Shown in pieces: positions 3,472 to 20,658 of a stretch of 21,694 bases of DNA. Below the pieces are notes generated by a model. That model ran no database searches, was not told the DNA's origin, and was given only the letters and a program-made list of their open reading frames with translations. Origin of the DNA: a virus; the IMG/VR virus record IMGVR_UViG_3300030004_000096, positions 1 through 21,694 of that record, one strand, 5' to 3'. Position 1 is the stretch's first letter. Every line of letters starts with the position of its first letter. Both the position numbers and the translations under genes were made by a program.

Positions 3472-3650
3472 TGCTTTCAGTAAGTGAAAAATATGTGGGG
3501 AGAAGGGTCAAGTCTATAAAGGCTGGCTCTTTTCCTTCATTTCGTGGAGTTATTATTGGTACTCAGAATGCATTCTATGTTGTCAAAAACACAAAAGACA
3601 ACACAGAATGGTTAAGGTATCCATCAGAATTAGAGATTTATAAAAAATGA
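3471..3650 (+). CDS. hypothetical protein, 59 aa
   Basis: I chose the ATG at 3471, which overlaps the regA stop (TAATG), rather than an upstream in-frame ATG inside regA. The product is small and basic with alternating hydrophobic residues (VGRRVKSI, GVIIGTQNAFYVVKN), suggesting a small beta-barrel such as an SH3- or KOW-like fold; that is only a pattern impression. Its TGA overlaps the start of the ATP-grasp gene (ATGA), so it belongs to the same operon. Confidence 0.6.
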   Translation: MLSVSEKYVGRRVKSIKAGSFPSFRGVIIGTQNAFYVVKNTKDNTEWLRYPSELEIYKK

Positions 3651-4522
3651 TTGACTGGCTTATTGACGAAATTCTTTTAGAAAAACATGATACCGGATTT
3701 CCTACTTTGGCCGAGGCTGCAAGTAATGCCGGTCATAATGTAATATTGACAAGATATATTCCTTTTTCTACATCGGTGTCAAATGATGTAGATCAATTTA
3801 TATATGAAAGACAAACAGTTTTAAATAAACCTTTGGTTGCATATGGTTGTACTGGTTTTCTGAAGCAACTTGTTAAAAATCCATATTATAAGTTTAGTTG
3901 TCCCGGTGCATACTTCAAGATAGACGAGTTGAAATACTCAGTTTATTCTTCTCAATGGGGTGAGTATATGTTTAATGAAGACTACATCATGCTTCCTTAT
4001 GGAGAACTAAAGCGTCGTATCGACGAAGATATTCATGAAGGTAGACGACCACCACATTTTAAATCACATAGACTTTTTGTTAGACCTGATGTTGTCACAA
4101 AGTCCTTTGCTGGTCGTTTATTCGATTTTGATACTTTTGAAGACTCAATTCGATCTATCGTACAATATGAACCAATCGATGATAGAGAATTATGCATAAT
4201 TGCATCTGAAAAAGAAATAATTGCAGAATTTCGTCATATTGTATGCGACCGTGAAGTCATTACGGGCTCTCAGTATCGACGTGATGGAAAGCTAGACATT
4301 CGTAGCGATGTTGATGAAGATTGCCACAGGCTGGCTCAACAGGTAGCAGAGAAAGAAGATATGGATTATGTCTATGTCGTCGATACTGCATTGACTGAAG
4401 ATGGTCCGAGAATTATGGAATTTAATGCATTTTCATGTTCTGGTCTATACGCCTGCGACACAAATATCATTGTAGATAAAGTTGGTAAAATGGCAATAAA
4501 AGAATTGAAGGGTGATCTATGA
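3647..4522 (+). CDS. ATP-grasp domain protein
   Basis: 291 residues. The C-terminal half has the layout of an ATP-grasp ligase: LFVRPDVVTKSFAG near residue 141, a central acidic stretch, YVVDTALTEDGPRIMEFNAF around residues 245-268 with the metal-binding Asp, Glu and Asn, then a Gly/Cys-rich SCSGLYACD. This is the style of phage ATP-grasp proteins of the R2K clade. ATP-grasp enzymes join an acyl phosphate to an amine or thiol, but neither substrate nor partner can be read from the sequence. It overlaps both neighbours by four bases. Confidence 0.75.
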   Translation: MIDWLIDEILLEKHDTGFPTLAEAASNAGHNVILTRYIPFSTSVSNDVDQFIYERQTVLNKPLVAYGCTGFLKQLVKNPYYKFSCPGAYFKIDELKYSVYSSQWGEYMFNEDYIMLPYGELKRRIDEDIHEGRRPPHFKSHRLFVRPDVVTKSFAGRLFDFDTFEDSIRSIVQYEPIDDRELCIIASEKEIIAEFRHIVCDREVITGSQYRRDGKLDIRSDVDEDCHRLAQQVAEKEDMDYVYVVDTALTEDGPRIMEFNAFSCSGLYACDTNIIVDKVGKMAIKELKGDL

Positions 4523-6834: not shown

Positions 6835-7350
6835 ATGGCTATTACTTTTTCTAATTTTGTTCAGGTTTTCATGAACATAAGCGAATATGCTTATAGCAGC
6901 AACGACCTTTTGAATTGTTCAAAGGATCGTAATCTATGCTTAGATGTAAATCACAAATTAAATTCTAATAATATTACATATGAACTTATTAATGATGCTG
7001 ATTATAATAAGGCGCATATTGCATATAATAGAGTTGAAATAGCTCCAATTGATGATTTAATTACTTATAATTCAGCACTTCATGAAATCGGTCATATTTT
7101 GACTACCGATTTAAATCATCTTATGATGGTATATCGGAAGATTGCCGACGAAGGTTTCTTGAATGCTTCAGATAGTCTTTTTCAAGAATATAAAGAAGTT
7201 GCAATTATTTATGAAAATCTGGCTTGGGATTGGGCTAAAACCAATTCTATATCTTGGAATTCAGATGTTGACAAACTTGTTAAAGAGTGTGTGCTTACAT
7301 ACACCGACTCACCACCAATCTCAGTTTTTAGGAATTATGTGGGAATATGA
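6835..7350 (+). CDS. zincin-like metallopeptidase domain protein (HEIGH motif)
   Basis: 171 residues. LHEIGHIL at residues 82-89 is an HExxH zinc-binding motif with a hydrophobic flank typical of gluzincins and related phage zincins. The third ligand is not obvious; Glu residues in DEGFLNASD (after residue 100) or in KEVAIIYENLAWDW are candidates. The N-terminal 70 residues have no recognised domain and no signal peptide is seen, so it would act inside the host. The substrate is unknown. It overlaps the nucleotidyltransferase gene by four bases (ATGA). Confidence 0.65.
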   Translation: MAITFSNFVQVFMNISEYAYSSNDLLNCSKDRNLCLDVNHKLNSNNITYELINDADYNKAHIAYNRVEIAPIDDLITYNSALHEIGHILTTDLNHLMMVYRKIADEGFLNASDSLFQEYKEVAIIYENLAWDWAKTNSISWNSDVDKLVKECVLTYTDSPPISVFRNYVGI

Positions 7351-8321
7351 ATAAAATCGTAGAAATGAATTTTGGCTCTCGTCTTTACGGGACATCTACG
7401 CCTGCTTCTGATATTGATATCAAGGGCGTATACCTTCCTACAGCAGATGATATTCTGTTGGGTCGTATCAAGGGTTCCGTATCTACCAAGCGTCCAAAAG
7501 GCGAGGGTGAGAAGAACTATGCCGGTGAGGTAGACGAAGAATATCATTCACTTGACAAGTTTCTGGATTTGGTCTATCAAGGCCAGACTGTAGCCATCGA
7601 CATGCTATTCGTCAATCCTGAAAATATTATCAGTAAAAATTATATTTGGGATGATATTGTCGCAAATCGTGACAGGCTGATTTCACGAAAGTCAGAGGCT
7701 TTTATTGGCTATTGTATGCAACAGGCCAAGAAGTATGGTATCAAGGGTAGCCGAGTTGCTGCCGTAAGAAGCTCACTTGACTTTCTTAAGAGCTTTCTAG
7801 TAAAGCCTTCTACAAAACTAAGAGAAGTTGCACCTTGGATTGCAAATTTTGTTAGCGAACAAAATAATGAATTTGTTAAAATCGAGCATACATTTCAACA
7901 GTCTGGCGTCGAAATGCTTTTCTTTGAAGTATGTGGTCGTAAAATCCAATTCAATTCTTCTTTGAAAGAAGGTATTGACATTCTTCAGCGATTGATGGAT
8001 GAATACGGTACAAGAGCCCTAATGGCCGAAACCAACACTGGTGTAGACTGGAAAGCACTATCACATGCCGTTCGTATCGCTCAGCAGGCTGTAGAGCTTT
8101 TTGAAACACATAACGTCGTGTTTCCTCGTCACAATGCTGCATATCTTTTGGATATCAAGCAGGGTCGTATTCCTTACGTTGAAGTAGCTGCACAGATCGA
8201 AGACTTGTTCGAAGAAGTAAAAGCAGCATCTTTGAAGTCAACTCTACAAGAGAAGCCAGATAAAGATTGGATTGAAAATTTTATCATAGAAGAATATCGT
8301 GATGTTGTTGTAGAATATTGA
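7347..8321 (+). CDS. predicted nucleotidyltransferase (DNA polymerase beta superfamily, YcgL/COG3541-like)
   Basis: 324 residues. GSRLYGTSTPASDIDIKG at residues 10-27 is the GS...DxD signature of polymerase-beta-type nucleotidyltransferases, with Asp22 and Asp24 as metal ligands and a further acidic position likely near IDMLFV. The C-terminal half is helical. Related genes are common in T4-like phages and are annotated only as predicted nucleotidyltransferases; the target (tRNA end, protein or antibiotic) is unknown. The GC content is slightly higher than in neighbours. It may be read from the intragenic promoter at 6689. Confidence 0.85.
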   Translation: MNKIVEMNFGSRLYGTSTPASDIDIKGVYLPTADDILLGRIKGSVSTKRPKGEGEKNYAGEVDEEYHSLDKFLDLVYQGQTVAIDMLFVNPENIISKNYIWDDIVANRDRLISRKSEAFIGYCMQQAKKYGIKGSRVAAVRSSLDFLKSFLVKPSTKLREVAPWIANFVSEQNNEFVKIEHTFQQSGVEMLFFEVCGRKIQFNSSLKEGIDILQRLMDEYGTRALMAETNTGVDWKALSHAVRIAQQAVELFETHNVVFPRHNAAYLLDIKQGRIPYVEVAAQIEDLFEEVKAASLKSTLQEKPDKDWIENFIIEEYRDVVVEY

Positions 8322-13054: not shown

Positions 13055-13300
13055 ATGGCTAAATCGAAACGTGGAAGACGCACTGGTCCAAGGGAAGACG
13101 AAAGAATTGTTTCCCTTCGTGAGAGAGTTCAGACAATTCTTCATAATTCTCCTGATGCAGGAAATATTTTCGATCTTATGACGATTGGTTATCGAGTGTG
13201 GAAGCAAGGTATTGGAATTCCAGTAGAAGACATTAAACTTGTCCTCGTCGAGGAATGTATGAAGTTCGAGTTTGAAAAGGAAGTTCAAAATACCGCTTGA
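13055..13300 (+). CDS. hypothetical protein with basic N terminus, 81 aa
   Basis: I chose ATG 13055 (MAKSKRGRRTGPREDER), nine bases after GAGG, over a TTG fifteen bases upstream. The N terminus is very basic and the rest looks helical (ERIVSLRERVQTILHN, VEDIKLVLVEECMKFEFEKE). No family is recognised; the basic tail suggests nucleic acid contact. Its end carries the -35 element of the next promoter. Confidence 0.6.
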   Translation: MAKSKRGRRTGPREDERIVSLRERVQTILHNSPDAGNIFDLMTIGYRVWKQGIGIPVEDIKLVLVEECMKFEFEKEVQNTA

Positions 13301-13325
13301 CTTCATAAGCAACATACCCTATAAA
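13297..13325 (+). promoter_or_regulatory. sigma70-like promoter for the 13.3-13.7 kb RNA
   Basis: TTGACT (13297-13302), a 17-base spacer and TATAAA (13320-13325). The predicted start is near 13332. No gene of normal size follows for 350 bases, so the product appears to be noncoding RNA. Confidence 0.6.
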
Positions 13326-13331
13326 GGTGAC

Positions 13332-13670
13332 ATGAACAACGGAGCAACGGACATGGTTCACTAAACCCAAATCTGCTGTTGGCTGAATGGTGCAGATGAT
13401 GGGCCAAAGATTTAGCAAAGGGTGTAGAAATCCTATACACCCGGATGACCAAGGGGACGGAGCCCATTAAAAAGGCTAGGTGCGGTATCTGACGACTACC
13501 AAGAGATACGGCTGACGGGTAGAGTAGACGGTAAGGGTGCGGGAATTACCTTAACAACGCACGTTCTTTATATAAGAACAACAGTCTAGGTGACGACTGC
13601 CTGATTACACTACTAATCAGGCACCTGTAGTGAGGGGGTTTATGGTGCAATTCCATATGTTGTTTTTATA
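13332..13670 (+). ncRNA. large structured RNA with pseudoknots, own promoter
   Basis: About 340 bases without a normal reading frame (only a ten-codon frame, MNNGATDMVH, at the very start). Paired elements include ATCTGC 13371-13376 with GCAGAT 13392-13397; GGGTGTA 13420-13426 with TACACCC 13436-13442; GTATCT 13485-13490 with AGATAC 13504-13509, crossed by CTACC 13496-13500 with GGTAG 13518-13522; GGTAA 13530-13534 with TTACC 13546-13550, crossed by GTGCG 13537-13541 with CGCAC 13558-13562; GTTCTT with AAGAAC; and a 9-bp hairpin at 13599-13622. It ends in a T5 run near 13667. Its size, knots and position beside phage tRNAs recall ornate RNAs such as GOLLD and ROOL, but I do not recognise the class. 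Confidence 0.6.
13577..13664 (+). other. tRNA-like 3' domain with a loop-loop pseudoknot
   Basis: AACAACA (13577-13583) pairs exactly with TGTTGTT (13658-13664) like a 7-bp acceptor stem. Just inside is a T-arm look-alike: TATGG, loop TGCAATT, CCATA. In place of an anticodon arm there is a 9-bp hairpin (GCCTGATTA with TAATCAGGC) whose six-base loop CACTAC is fully complementary to GTAGTG at 13627-13632. No CCA is encoded. This is the 3' end of the large RNA, not an ordinary tRNA. Confidence 0.5.
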
Positions 13671-13688
13671 TAAAGATGGAGAATTATA

Positions 13689-13888: not shown

Positions 13889-13971
13889 AGGGGTGCGGTG
13901 CAGTTGGAGAGGCACGCTGGTCTCCAAAACCAGTCCGAAAGGTGAGACGAGTTCGATTCTCTCTACCCCTG
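13889..13971 (+). tRNA. tRNA-Trp (CCA)
   Basis: Acceptor AGGGGTG pairs with TACCCCT (one G-U), discriminator G. The anticodon stem CTGGT/ACCAG encloses CTCCAAA, giving CCA. T loop TTCGATT. The T stem has a bulged C and the variable region is longer than normal (about ten bases). CCA is not encoded: the sequence continues CATAAGC, the start of the duplicated homing-endonuclease leader. Confidence 0.85.
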
Positions 13972-14042
13972 CATAAGCACTCCGTATCTATATATAGCAA
14001 TAGTAAGTCTATTATAGATACGGAGGTTTAGCGATGTATTGA
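13972..14042 (+). promoter_or_regulatory. copy 1 of the homing-endonuclease leader hairpin, now without its gene
   Basis: The 62 bases from 13971 match 19161-19222 at 58 positions. Arms CTCCGTATCTATA (13980-13992) and TATAGATACGGAG (14013-14025) form a perfect 13-bp stem with the ribosome site GGAGG in the 3' arm. The late octamer equivalent is TATATATA (13989-13996). An ATG at 14034 opens a frame of two codons (Met-Tyr) before TGA, which I read as the remnant of a deleted GIY-YIG gene. Confidence 0.65.
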
Positions 14043-14055
14043 TTAAATCATATAA

Positions 14056-14132
14056 CCCTCTTATAGCTCACTGGTAGAGCGGCCAGCCGGATAGGCGGTG
14101 CGTATGTGGTTCGATTCCATATAGAGGGACCA
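14056..14132 (+). tRNA. tRNA with aberrant anticodon arm (isotype unresolved, GAU-like)
   Basis: 77 bases with encoded ACCA. Acceptor CCCTCT pairs with AGAGGG, with a mismatch at the seventh pair. D arm GCTC-ACTGGTA-GAGC and T loop TTCGATT are canonical. The anticodon arm is not: the best seven-base loop is CGGATAG, which would present GAU with G rather than U at position 33 and two mismatches in the stem. Either a decayed gene or a tRNA with a remodelled anticodon arm. Confidence 0.6.
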
Positions 14133-14143
14133 TTTTATAATAA

Positions 14144-14219
14144 CCCTGATAAGCTAATCTAGTGAAAGCGCCTGTCTGAAGAACAGGAGAGTTTCGGGCG
14201 GAACGAAAATCAGGGACCA
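14144..14219 (+). tRNA. tRNA-Phe (GAA) with non-canonical D and T loops
   Basis: Acceptor CCCTGAT pairs perfectly with ATCAGGG, discriminator A, encoded CCA. Anticodon stem CCTGT/ACAGG encloses CTGAAGA (GAA). The T stem TTTCG/CGAAA is perfect but its loop is GGCGGAA instead of TTCRANY, and the D loop AATCTAGTGAA lacks the GG that normally docks with the T loop. The elbow contact must differ from a standard tRNA. Confidence 0.75.
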
Positions 14220-14239: not shown

Positions 14240-14401
14240 ATGAATGAAGCATCATCTGTAACAATTTCACTTGAGCGATTTAACTCCCTATTGGAAGCCG
14301 AAGCCAAGCTAGAAGCTCTAGAGGCTGCTGGTGTTGACAATTGGGATGGCTATGATTATGCTATGGAAATCCTAGCAGAAATGGAAAAGAGTGACAAATG
14401 A
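14240..14401 (+). CDS. hypothetical acidic helical protein, 53 aa
   Basis: ATG 14240 lies seven bases after GGAG; an ATG six bases upstream is too close to that site. The sequence is acidic and alanine/leucine/glutamate-rich (LERFNSLLEAEAKLEALEAA), likely a helical hairpin, ending EILAEMEKSDK. Its TGA overlaps the PTH2 start (ATGA), so it is probably co-translated with the peptidyl-tRNA hydrolase. Confidence 0.65.
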   Translation: MNEASSVTISLERFNSLLEAEAKLEALEAAGVDNWDGYDYAMEILAEMEKSDK

Positions 14402-14781
14402 ACAAGCAAGTAATTCTCGTAAGAACTGATCTAGGAATGTCAATTGGAAAGACAGCCGCTCAGGCCGGTCATGCTGCTATCATGTTTCTCGTTCATCATC
14501 TTACCTACAACATTCCATTTAGCAAAGTCCAGATGGACTGGCTTTTCGAAGAAAAGCTAAAAAATTCTGAGTGGAATTATGGCGGCATGAGAAAGATCGT
14601 TCTGGCTGTTAATGATTTGCAAGAGCTTTTACAACTTGTCAATTTTGCACAGCAGATCGATATCGAGGCCCATTTGGTATTTGATGAAGGTCTAGACTGT
14701 ATTACATGTGCCTCTCTAGGTCCAGATGCAGCCGATAAGATTGATATTGTCACAGATCATCTAACTTTGCTAGGTAAGTAA
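14398..14781 (+). CDS. peptidyl-tRNA hydrolase, PTH2 family
   Basis: 127 residues, a normal PTH2 length. The N terminus NKQVILVRTDLGMSIGKTAA followed by QAGHAA is the signature first strand and helix (K-x-x-AQ-x-x-HA), and the later DEGLDCITCASLGPDAADKI corresponds to the conserved T-x-L-AIGP segment. PTH2 cleaves the ester between peptide and tRNA on drop-off products. The family is typical of archaea and eukaryotes and sporadic in bacteria and phages. Lying among phage tRNA genes, it probably recycles peptidyl-tRNA during fast late translation. Confidence 0.88.
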   Translation: MNKQVILVRTDLGMSIGKTAAQAGHAAIMFLVHHLTYNIPFSKVQMDWLFEEKLKNSEWNYGGMRKIVLAVNDLQELLQLVNFAQQIDIEAHLVFDEGLDCITCASLGPDAADKIDIVTDHLTLLGK

Positions 14782-19090: not shown

Positions 19091-19161
19091 GGTCATGTAA
19101 TTCAACGGTAGAATGCCCGCCTGTCGAGCGGAGAACGAGGGTTCAACTCCCTCCTTGATCG
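19091..19161 (+). tRNA. tRNA-Asp (GUC)
   Basis: Acceptor GGTCATG pairs with CTTGATC with one mismatch, discriminator G. Anticodon stem CCGC/GCGG and loop CTGTCGA give GUC. T arm GAGGG-TTCAACT-CCCTC is canonical. CCA is not encoded; the gene runs directly into CATAAGC of the homing-endonuclease leader. Confidence 0.88.
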
Positions 19162-19221
19162 CATAAGCACTCCGTAGCTATAAATAGCAATAATAAGTCT
19201 ATTATAGTTACGGAGGTTTAG
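19162..19221 (+). promoter_or_regulatory. copy 2 of the homing-endonuclease leader: late promoter plus RBS-masking hairpin
   Basis: Arms CTCCGTAGCTATAA (19170-19183) and TTATAGTTACGGAG (19202-19215) form a 14-bp stem with one G-U; the 3' arm contains the GGAGG ribosome site. An exact T4 late octamer TATAAATA lies at 19179-19186, so late RNA should start near 19192, after the 5' arm. Compared with copy 1, two of four base differences face each other at the eighth pair (T-A to G-U), keeping the stem. Confidence 0.75.
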
Positions 19222-19840
19222 CATTTTTATACTATATACAAAATTACAAATAATATCAATGGTAAATTTTATATAGGTAAACATCAAACTACTAATCTTG
19301 ATGATGATTATTTTGGATCAGGAAAACTTCTTAAAAGAGCTATTAAGAAGTATGGTATTGTAAATTTTACTAAAGAAATTCTAGAGGTATATGATACCGA
19401 AGACAAAATGAATCTTGCTGAGAAAATTTTAGTTATAATAGATTTTGAAGTTAGTTATAATATTTGTTCTGGTGGACACGGTGGTTTCGGATATATTAAT
19501 GATATACTTACATTTGAACAAAGATCAAAGATAGGTCAGTCTCCAAAGAAACGTAGAGTTCATAATGAAAAATCATTAAAATCTATTAGAAAAAATATAC
19601 AATATGCAGTAACATTCGTTAATATACCAAGACGACAATTTTTAGCTGGATTAGCTGCAAAACGACCAGAAGTAATGAAAAAACGTAAAGATACATTTCA
19701 AAAAATAAAACATGCTCAAGGTGAAAATAATTCTCAATATGGTACTTGTTGGATTACGAATGGTCAAGAAAATAAGAAGATAAAAAAAAGAAGCTCTTGA
19801 CGAATGGATAAATAAAGGGTATTATAAAGGTAGAATATAA
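19222..19840 (+). pseudogene. GIY-YIG homing endonuclease, decayed
   Basis: The frame from 19222 encodes FYTIYKITNNINGKFYIGKH, the GIY-YIG strand pair, then FGSGKLLKRAIKKYGIVNFT with the catalytic Arg region and EVYDTEDKMNLAEKILV with the acidic helix, followed by a basic DNA-binding part ending QYGTCWITNGQENKKIKK. No usable start codon exists: the frame opens right after a TAG and the first ATG is internal (19408). At the A8 run near 19785 the frame shifts; the other frame continues EALDEWINKGYYKGRI and stops at 19838-19840. I read it as a recently inactivated mobile endonuclease attached to the tRNA-Asp 3' end. Confidence 0.8.
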
Positions 19841-20128: not shown

Positions 20129-20284
20129 ATGTTAGTTGACGAGTGGAGGAATTGGTAATACTCTACGGCTCCTGAAAGGGAAACTGTTCGTTGTCGGGTG
20201 ATTAAATCCGGCTGCCTGTCTATAGGTGGCGAAAGCATTGTAGGTTCGAGTCCTACCTCAGTAAGTATAGACCATTACTAACAT
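20129..20284 (+). ncRNA. enlarged tRNA-like RNA closed by an 8-bp stem
   Basis: ATGTTAGT (20129-20136) pairs exactly with ACTAACAT (20277-20284). Inside are a D-arm-like stretch, GAG-GAATTGGTAATA-CTC, as in Leu/Ser-type tRNAs, and a canonical T arm GTAGG-TTCGAGT-CCTAC (20239-20255). Between them lie about 75 bases, including GC-GAAA-GC and CCT-GTCTAT-AGG hairpins, where a tRNA has an anticodon arm of 17. It may be a tRNA with a large insertion or a tRNA-derived regulatory RNA. Confidence 0.45.
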
Positions 20285-20545
20285 ATTGAATTTAAAAGAG
20301 TAATAAAAATTAAGGAAGTTGGCTTAGAAGCAGCCATCTTTTAAAGAGTTGCAAGTTGTCTGGATTTTATCTTGGACCCAAAGAGATAGAAAAAGTCAAC
20401 AGGGGAAAGACAAGTAAAGTTTATGTATTTTGTTTTACGGGCGAAGCCGTCGAATTAAGTTGCCAATGTCAGTTGGGCCTGATATGCTACGATGATACAT
20501 AAGACCCTCCGAGCATTTGGCGTCATAGCACACTTTCTTTTTTTA
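20285..20545 (+). ncRNA. noncoding RNA carrying a 23S rRNA helix-43 mimic, with U-rich end
   Basis: No gene in about 260 bases. Near the 5' end is the rRNA-like element (20314-20347). Further on are an ACGG/CCGT hairpin (20437-20450), CCAA/TTGG around 20463-20478, and TGCTA-CGA-TGA (20485-20495) pairing with TCATAGCA (20524-20531) with a bulge, followed by TTTCTTTTTTTACT, a terminator-like T-run. No strong promoter lies directly upstream, so it is probably read from an upstream promoter. Confidence 0.55.
20314..20347 (+). other. match to 23S rRNA GTPase-associated centre (helix 43 and junction)
   Basis: Aligned with E. coli 23S rRNA 1055-1088 as I remember it, 32 of 34 bases agree without gaps, including the loop TTAGAAGC with A1067 (here 20326) and the junction TTTAAAGA. 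The two differences are at positions 1058 and 1080, which pair with each other: U-A in E. coli, A-U here, so the stem is kept. Homology to helix 44 (with A1095) stops after 20347. Bacterial L11, L10-stalk and translational GTPases contact this region of the ribosome. Confidence 0.8.
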
Positions 20546-20553
20546 CTCAATAT

Positions 20554-20658
20554 CCTGTATTAGCTTAATGGTAGAGTGACGGAATGTTAATCCGTAGATA
20601 GGGTAGGTCTTAAAATTCTAGATGTATTAAGATGGTTCGATTCCCCTATACAGGTCCA
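20554..20658 (+). tRNA. tRNA-Asn (GUU) with a hairpin inserted at the T arm
   Basis: Acceptor CCTGTAT pairs perfectly with ATACAGG, discriminator T, encoded CCA. Anticodon stem ACGGA/TCCGT encloses ATGTTAA (GUU). The gene is 105 bases: about 32 extra bases lie between a 5' T-stem strand (TAGGG) and the T loop TTCGATT, and contain TCTTAA ... TTAAGA, a 6-bp hairpin. Removing the insert restores a normal T arm with the 3' strand CCCCT. Confidence 0.82.

Follow-up and report, generated by a model that had tools for sequence, protein, structure and literature searches.

An unclassified, pseudoknot-rich phage RNA next to tRNA genes, with its own promoter and a possible tag-less tmRNA-like layout

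Between the genes of an 80-aa and a 63-aa protein of a T4-superfamily phage lie about 390 bases with no plus-strand open reading frame of at least 60 aa, and this locus raises the question of what kind of RNA, if any, is encoded there. The locus belongs to the window, namely the whole stretch of 21,694 nucleotides that was analysed (IMG/VR record IMGVR_UViG_3300030004_000096), which is a phage fragment whose sliding clamp and clamp loader match PHROGs. The lineage of this phage is isolated, because its clamp loader is at most about 42–46% identical to those outside near-identical contigs in phage records and IMG/VR; for example, the identity is 44% with the clamp loader of G010 (IMGVR_UViG_3300008266_000014), a distant T4-like relative. 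The features of the locus are as follows.

13058–13300, plus strand: upstream gene of an 80-aa protein with no family
13297–13325, plus strand: promoter TTGACT-17 nt-TATAAA (sequence, pattern scan)
13332–13670, plus strand: non-coding structured RNA, with a +1 predicted at about 13332 and the tRNA-like end at 13664
13335–13341, plus strand: acceptor-like 5' strand of P1, AACAACG, pairing with TGTTGTT at 13658–13664
13342–13359, plus strand: D-arm-like GAGC-AACGGACATG-GTTC with GG in the loop (sequence, inference)
13362–13368, plus strand: 5' strand of P2, TAAACCC, pairing with GGGTTTA at 13636–13642
13371–13407, plus strand: pseudoknot 1, ATCTGC/GCAGAT with TTGGC/GCCAA (pairing search, pseudoknot finder)
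13409–13442, plus strand: hairpin GGGTGTA/TACACCC, possibly a pseudoknot with GATTT/AAATC (pairing search, pseudoknot finder)
13443–13484, plus strand: longest stretch without an assigned helix, at the position of the tag in tmRNA (inference)
13485–13522, plus strand: pseudoknot 2, GTATCT/AGATAC with CTACC/GGTAG (pairing search, pseudoknot finder)
13530–13562, plus strand: pseudoknot 3, GGTAA/TTACC with GTGCG/CGCAC (pairing search, pseudoknot finder, allele comparison)
13563–13579, plus strand: hairpin GTTCTT/AAGAAC, overlapping the 5' arm (13565–13583) of an alternative 19-bp helix
13582–13632, plus strand: double pseudoknot 4/5, CAGTC/GACTG, AGGTG/CACCT, CCTGATTA/TAATCAGG and CACTAC/GTAGTG
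13641–13664, plus strand: T arm TATGG-TGCAATT-CCATA, then the 3' strand of P1, TGTTGTT, with no CCA after it
13658–13676, plus strand: 3' strand of the alternative helix of 19 bp formed with 13565–13583, excluding P1
13689–13880, plus strand: downstream gene of a 63-aa basic-tailed protein with no family
13889–14216, plus strand: tRNA-Trp, tRNA-Ile and, by eye, tRNA-Phe (GAA)
14398–14781, plus strand: Pth2 peptidyl-tRNA hydrolase

The evidence given below supports an unclassified structured RNA that has its own promoter and lies next to phage tRNA genes, and its tag-less tmRNA-like layout is a new lead in which our confidence is moderate to low.

Promoter and pseudoknots of the RNA gene

The boxes TTGACT (13297–13302) and TATAAA (13320–13325) are separated by a 17-nt spacer and agree with the consensus at 10 of 12 positions; from these boxes, the +1 is predicted near 13332. 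The promoter is of the sigma-70 type and probably of the early class, and its −35 box shares bases with the stop codon that ends the 80-aa gene upstream. When the window was scanned for the pattern TTGAC-N17–19-TATAA, three occurrences were found against 0.52 expected. The earlier note had described a promoter leading into a gene-free stretch at 13332–13670, and both were borne out, there being no plus-strand ORF of at least 60 aa within these positions in the ORF list; a coding region, whose frames were also checked, was accordingly rejected as a reading of the RNA gene.

Both crossing pairs that the note had named, GTATCT/AGATAC with CTACC/GGTAG and GGTAA/TTACC with GTGCG/CGCAC, were found exactly, at 13485–13522 and 13530–13562, respectively, but the two or three pseudoknots claimed there proved to be an undercount, as two to four more are possible. 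In the double pseudoknot 4/5, CAGTC/GACTG crosses AGGTG/CACCT at 13582–13626, and the loop CACTAC can pair with GTAGTG (13608–13632); just three bases are left unpaired, and the helices are perhaps not all spatially compatible. The two known alleles of the RNA differ at two places, namely A13534G and one G fewer within a G run. The former is found in another strain and falls in pseudoknot 3, where the plus-strand pair is retained as G–U.

The pseudoknot potential was evaluated as the best non-overlapping chain given by a simple H-type finder with nearest-neighbour stem energies. The best chain of the RNA has a stem energy of −103 kcal/mol, compared with a mean of −37 and a best value of −93 in dinucleotide shuffles, and hence surpasses 500 out of 500 of them. 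Nested folding is moderately unusual with a z of merely −2.4, and the structural signal of the RNA is therefore ascribed to its pseudoknots. Some alternatives in the chain exclude each other or are sterically questionable, such as a loop of 3 nt that would have to cross a stem of 10 bp; we therefore regard four as the safe number of pseudoknots and up to six as possible.

tRNA-like ends and the relation to tmRNA

The ends of the RNA can form a tRNA-like domain with the pseudoknot chain between them. P1, the 5' strand of which begins 3 nt past the predicted +1, consists of 7 bp (six Watson–Crick pairs and one G–U pair), and the D-arm-like segment comes right after this strand. The T arm is composed of a 5-bp stem and a 7-base loop, TGCAATT, which is one base off the textbook T loop GGTTCAATTCC. 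P2 (7 bp) abuts the T arm without a linker; bases 13641–13642 are common to the two, so that one of them is a pair or two shorter. A T arm together with a 7-bp acceptor at both ends of the RNA was formed in none of 40,000 shuffles. A blind descriptor composed of P1, the T arm and P2, which was written after the sequence had been seen, gave 20 distinct matches over 7.0 million strand-bases and recovered E. coli ssrA, included as a positive control. Further matches were T arms of real tRNAs or tRNA pairs, and the rest were judged by sequence context to lie mostly within genes; among the 20 matches, the RNA of the window ranks first for pseudoknot density.

These ends compete with another pairing. 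The inverted repeat 13565–13583/13658–13676 can form a helix of 19 bp with one G–U, the longest helix in 300 shuffles being 13, and it excludes P1 because the acceptor 3' strand is common to both. Minimum-energy folding picks the 19-bp helix once the transcript extends to 13676. The pseudoknot-free fold has an energy of −102 versus −87 for the enforced nested part of the tmRNA-like model, to which the crossing stems add about −49 with pseudoknot penalties not included. The 19-bp helix could be a precursor form or an RNase III site that is trimmed before P1 forms; alternatively, it could serve as a regulatory switch, or it could mean that the real fold does not have the tRNA-like ends.

In one-piece tmRNA, the ends are tRNA-like and P2 lies beside the T arm; one pseudoknot comes first and is separated by an open stretch from those that follow. 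The RNA of the window resembles one-piece tmRNA (ssrA, RF00023; e.g., those of E. coli and Bacillus phage G) in that its two ends can form a 7-bp acceptor-like stem and a T arm, P2 would adjoin the T arm, a predicted pseudoknot 1 and an open stretch would precede more predicted pseudoknots, the size is ~330 nt, and it occurs with tRNAs in a large phage. In our model, the pairing potential would allow four to six pseudoknots in the order of tmRNA, with one before the open stretch and the rest after it; four pseudoknots are typical of one-piece tmRNA (PMC11915505).

Unlike one-piece tmRNA, nonetheless, the RNA of the window has no similarity in sequence or to the covariance model. The Rfam model RF00023 gave no score on it, while the tmRNA of phage G scores 67.6 bits with the same model, and no tmRNA match appeared in the Rfam search up to E 10. 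ARAGORN found no tmRNA in the window either, and does call the tmRNAs of E. coli, phage G, XacN1 and G010. In other records, the matches to RF00023 were all below the cut-off and resembled tRNA-like domains; those in G010 and in the jumbo phage XacN1 are tmRNA genes according to ARAGORN, with the tags ANDSEYALAA and ANANTFDYALAA, respectively. These two genes are apparently of the permuted kind, and that of XacN1 is present in two copies, which are probably located in the terminal repeats.

The alanine identity pair G3–U70 is absent from the RNA of the window, which has C3–G70 instead, and so is an encoded A73-CCA end, position 73 being T followed by TTATAT; the missing CCA is weaker as counter-evidence, because an enzyme could add it. 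The consensus T loop TTCRANN is also absent, U55 being replaced by G in TGCAATT, as is the D-loop motif GGAUUCGAC. The helix-free gap 13443–13484 sits between pseudoknot 1 and pseudoknots 2–5, and neither of its frames, DDQGDGAH (stop) or MTKGTEPIKKARCGI (stop), is convincing as a tag. Where the tag is expected, the frames read ...DDQGDGAH (stop) or AKGVEILYTRMTKGTEPIKKARCGI (stop), and the +12 position after pseudoknot 1, near which a tmRNA would have its resume codon, is within a hairpin. Since the sequence features defining tmRNA are absent, we do not file this RNA as tmRNA; our proposal goes only so far as that it may function in the manner of a defective one.

Relatives, proposed role and rival explanations

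The earlier note had stated that the sequence was not a recognised one. Indeed, no Rfam covariance model matched 13332–13670 even up to E 5, and none of RNase P, tmRNA and the group I intron, the known families considered there, nor any riboswitch family was matched. Only three matches (naRNA4, astro_FSE and sR14) appeared up to E 10; all were far below their gathering scores and were rejected as identities of the RNA. The resemblance to GOLLD and ROOL that the note had suggested holds in part: the RNA is structured, unclassified and preceded by its own promoter, and like GOLLD, ROOL and other ornate RNAs it is highly structured, non-coding and found with phage tRNA genes, but its layout is closer to one-piece tmRNA. 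GOLLD and ROOL are, furthermore, considerably larger, whereas the RNA of the window has tRNA-like ends and matches nothing in Rfam; their Rfam models gave no match, by which membership is excluded at the sensitivity of an Rfam search.

Tandem H-type pseudoknots of about 35–40 nt are also reminiscent of the Type III antitoxin ToxI. While ToxI consists of near-identical direct repeats (~36 nt) beside a toxin gene, the pseudoknots in the window have no common sequence and are accompanied by no recognised toxin. ToxI-like repeats were rejected, as the RNA contains no direct repeat of at least 25 nt and its neighbours are without a known family. Mimicry of rRNA by the RNA at 13332–13670 was rejected as well, given that merely CCGGATGACCAAGGG was aligned with CCGGAAGACCAAGGG of 23S rRNA at E 0.78.

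All copies of the RNA that were found are at least 99% identical. No diverged homologue was hit by blastn in phages and E. coli genomes, nor through searches with the neighbouring proteins in IMG/VR or with an exact 20-mer. A covariance model of 13478–13664, the reach of which is limited because it was built from one sequence, found no diverged homologue in 21 related records, 14 larger records, 11 large phages with the rRNA-like RNA described below and six more; in a search of 81 loci, the best match had 16.7 bits, was shorter than the model and was judged to be chance. Patterns of pseudoknots 2 and 3 with fixed loops and free stems gave dozens of chance matches with unpaired stems, and a half-fixed pseudoknot pattern had no match in bacterial genomes.

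We tentatively consider the RNA at 13332–13670 to be a tag-less tmRNA mimic that acts on host ribosome rescue, a reading that we hold to be possible rather than probable. The sequence, the pairing potential, the promoter and the tRNA-like geometry are observed, and from these we infer transcription, the actual fold, binding to SmpB or the ribosome and an effect on the host. A trans-acting phage RNA would be made from its own promoter, and both its ends would close into the tRNA-like domain, in which the anticodon arm would be replaced by a P2-like helix leading into four to six pseudoknots. This would be the layout of one-piece tmRNA without the alanine identity, an encoded CCA or a recognisable tag. 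Such an RNA may bind what recognises tmRNA (SmpB and perhaps the A site of stalled ribosomes) with no tagging of the nascent chain, and rescue of host ribosomes would be damped or redirected while the phage supplies tRNAs and Pth2.

Phage precedents exist. Mycobacteriophage DS6A encodes a tmRNA with only the tRNA-like domain, and a molecule similar to it strongly inhibits tmRNA whether it is chargeable or not, perhaps by titrating SmpB (PMC4131195). Genes for tmRNA have been reported in 402 phages, and in the relative Melnitz the tmRNA is directly downstream of an early promoter (PMC9004378). Mimicry is plausible because T4-like and jumbo phages carry tmRNAs and a DS6A-like molecule inhibits tmRNA, and also because the tRNA and Pth2 genes nearby are part of that physiology. 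The RNA of the window would share with that of DS6A the nature of a tag-less phage tmRNA-like RNA and the mode of action proposed here; the DS6A RNA, however, has little beyond the tRNA-like domain and can be recognised from its sequence, whereas the RNA of the window combines a complete pseudoknot chain with a sequence that is not recognisable as tmRNA. If the proposal is true, phages can rebuild the shape of tmRNA from unrelated sequence in order to act on ribosome rescue, which would extend the small precedent of DS6A.

To an equal degree, it is possible that the RNA is an orphan of the ornate phage kind, comparable to GOLLD and ROOL although not a member of either, that has another function, for example, as a protein-binding scaffold or an RNA-only particle, and that its tRNA-like ends are fortuitous. 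Pseudoknot density as the strongest signal, the lack of a tmRNA score and the competition of the 19-bp helix with P1 all speak for this, and similar ornate RNAs forming RNA-only complexes have been reported (PMC12286853). It is less easily reconciled with a tRNA-like geometry seen in 0 out of 40,000 shuffles, a 5' end at the predicted +1 and the lack of a match to the Rfam models of GOLLD or ROOL. The two significant and mutually exclusive pairings would also fit a leader that acts in cis, in the manner of a riboswitch or thermometer, on the 63-aa gene and the tRNA genes; the 19-bp helix and the pseudoknotted fold would then be the states of a switch. The start of the 63-aa gene is 25 nt beyond the tRNA-like end, and the gene has a ribosome-binding-like GGAG. 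We nonetheless consider a leader quite unlikely, given that leaders are seldom as large as 330 nt with several pseudoknots, that neither alternative fold hides the region of GGAG and ATG, and that no family is known for the gene downstream.

The RNA might also be a working tmRNA that has diverged strongly, with an unusual tag and an unusual amino acid identity. Such a tmRNA would have the same layout, would be in keeping with the number of phages reported to carry tmRNA genes, and might use the short frame of DDQGDGAH, which ends in TAA in the unpaired gap. With G3–U70, CCA, U55 of the T loop, the D-loop motif, the context of a resume codon and a hydrophobic tag end all missing together, and with no match by RF00023 or ARAGORN, this is very unlikely. 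Finally, complementary words might have built up by chance between the genes, without selection for a structure, as the modest z of nested folding could suggest; a pseudoknot chain beyond all 500 shuffles, a helix of 19 bp against a maximum of 13 in 300, tRNA-like ends that no shuffle reproduced and a dedicated promoter make this explanation highly improbable. Even if the RNA is not the tag-less tmRNA mimic that we propose, it is a compact, unclassified and unusually pseudoknot-rich RNA that suits structure probing or cryo-EM.

A second RNA resembling the 23S rRNA GTPase-associated centre

Seven kb away from this RNA gene, 20314–20349 reads AAGTTGGCTTAGAAGCAGCCATCTTTTAAAGAGTTGC, and the 35 bases from 20313 are 94% identical to the GTPase-associated centre of E. 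coli 23S rRNA. This is the start of an intergenic element of ~215 nt whose last part, TTTGGCGTCATAGCACAC (ending at 20533), is similar to the 3' half of that rRNA domain; a large insert lies between the two rRNA-like halves. The same two-part element, not annotated as RNA, was found in Acinetobacter phage ME3 (whose copy was followed through its 5' part), Cronobacter phage GAP32, Pectobacterium phage CBB and Xanthomonas phages XacN1 and XaC1, and also in Pseudomonas phages pf16, UNO-G1W1 and Milchi, Aeromonas phage 4_4572, Vibrio phage 2.275.O and IMG/VR contigs. In Milchi, two such elements are arranged in tandem, with positions 1300–1680 covering the last part of the first and all of the second.

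The closing helix of the element varies in sequence between phages and is mostly still complementary: with small shifts of the arms allowed, it pairs at 8 or 9 of 9 positions in 7 of 12 cases, compared with 4 of 132 when the arms are exchanged between phages. The element matches no Rfam family, and no description was found in the literature searched. Judged from these sequences, 20314–20533 belongs to a widespread, uncatalogued phage RNA family that is present in unrelated large phages and mimics the GTPase-associated centre (the L11-binding domain) of 23S rRNA, and this is perhaps a more important finding than the RNA at 13332–13670. Its presence suggests that the phage imitates translation RNAs more generally. 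The full combination, in which a full-size tag-less tmRNA mimic without recognisable tmRNA sequence blocks or diverts rescue and stands beside the copy of the 23S GTPase-associated centre as part of a strategy of imitating translation RNAs, is more demanding, and we regard it as unlikely.

Elsewhere in the window, 14142–14216 is a probable tRNA-Phe (GAA) with an encoded CCA that neither ARAGORN nor Rfam reported at its threshold, and a tRNA-like gene at 20554–20655 was detected by Rfam only (44 bits) and has an extra stretch of ~30 nt; another, with GTAGGTTCGAGTCCTAC, was seen by eye at about 20140–20267. At 3647–4522 there is a gene for an ATP-grasp protein of the R2K type, whose family is found in jumbo phages, and at 7347–8321 one for an RlaP-like RNA repair nucleotidyltransferase. 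Directly 3' of tRNA-Trp and tRNA-Asp, at 13971–14032 and 19161–19222, there is a 62-nt element whose copies are 94% identical and form the hairpin CTCCGTA...TACGGAG. One pair of this hairpin differs at both bases between the copies, T–A being replaced by G–T.
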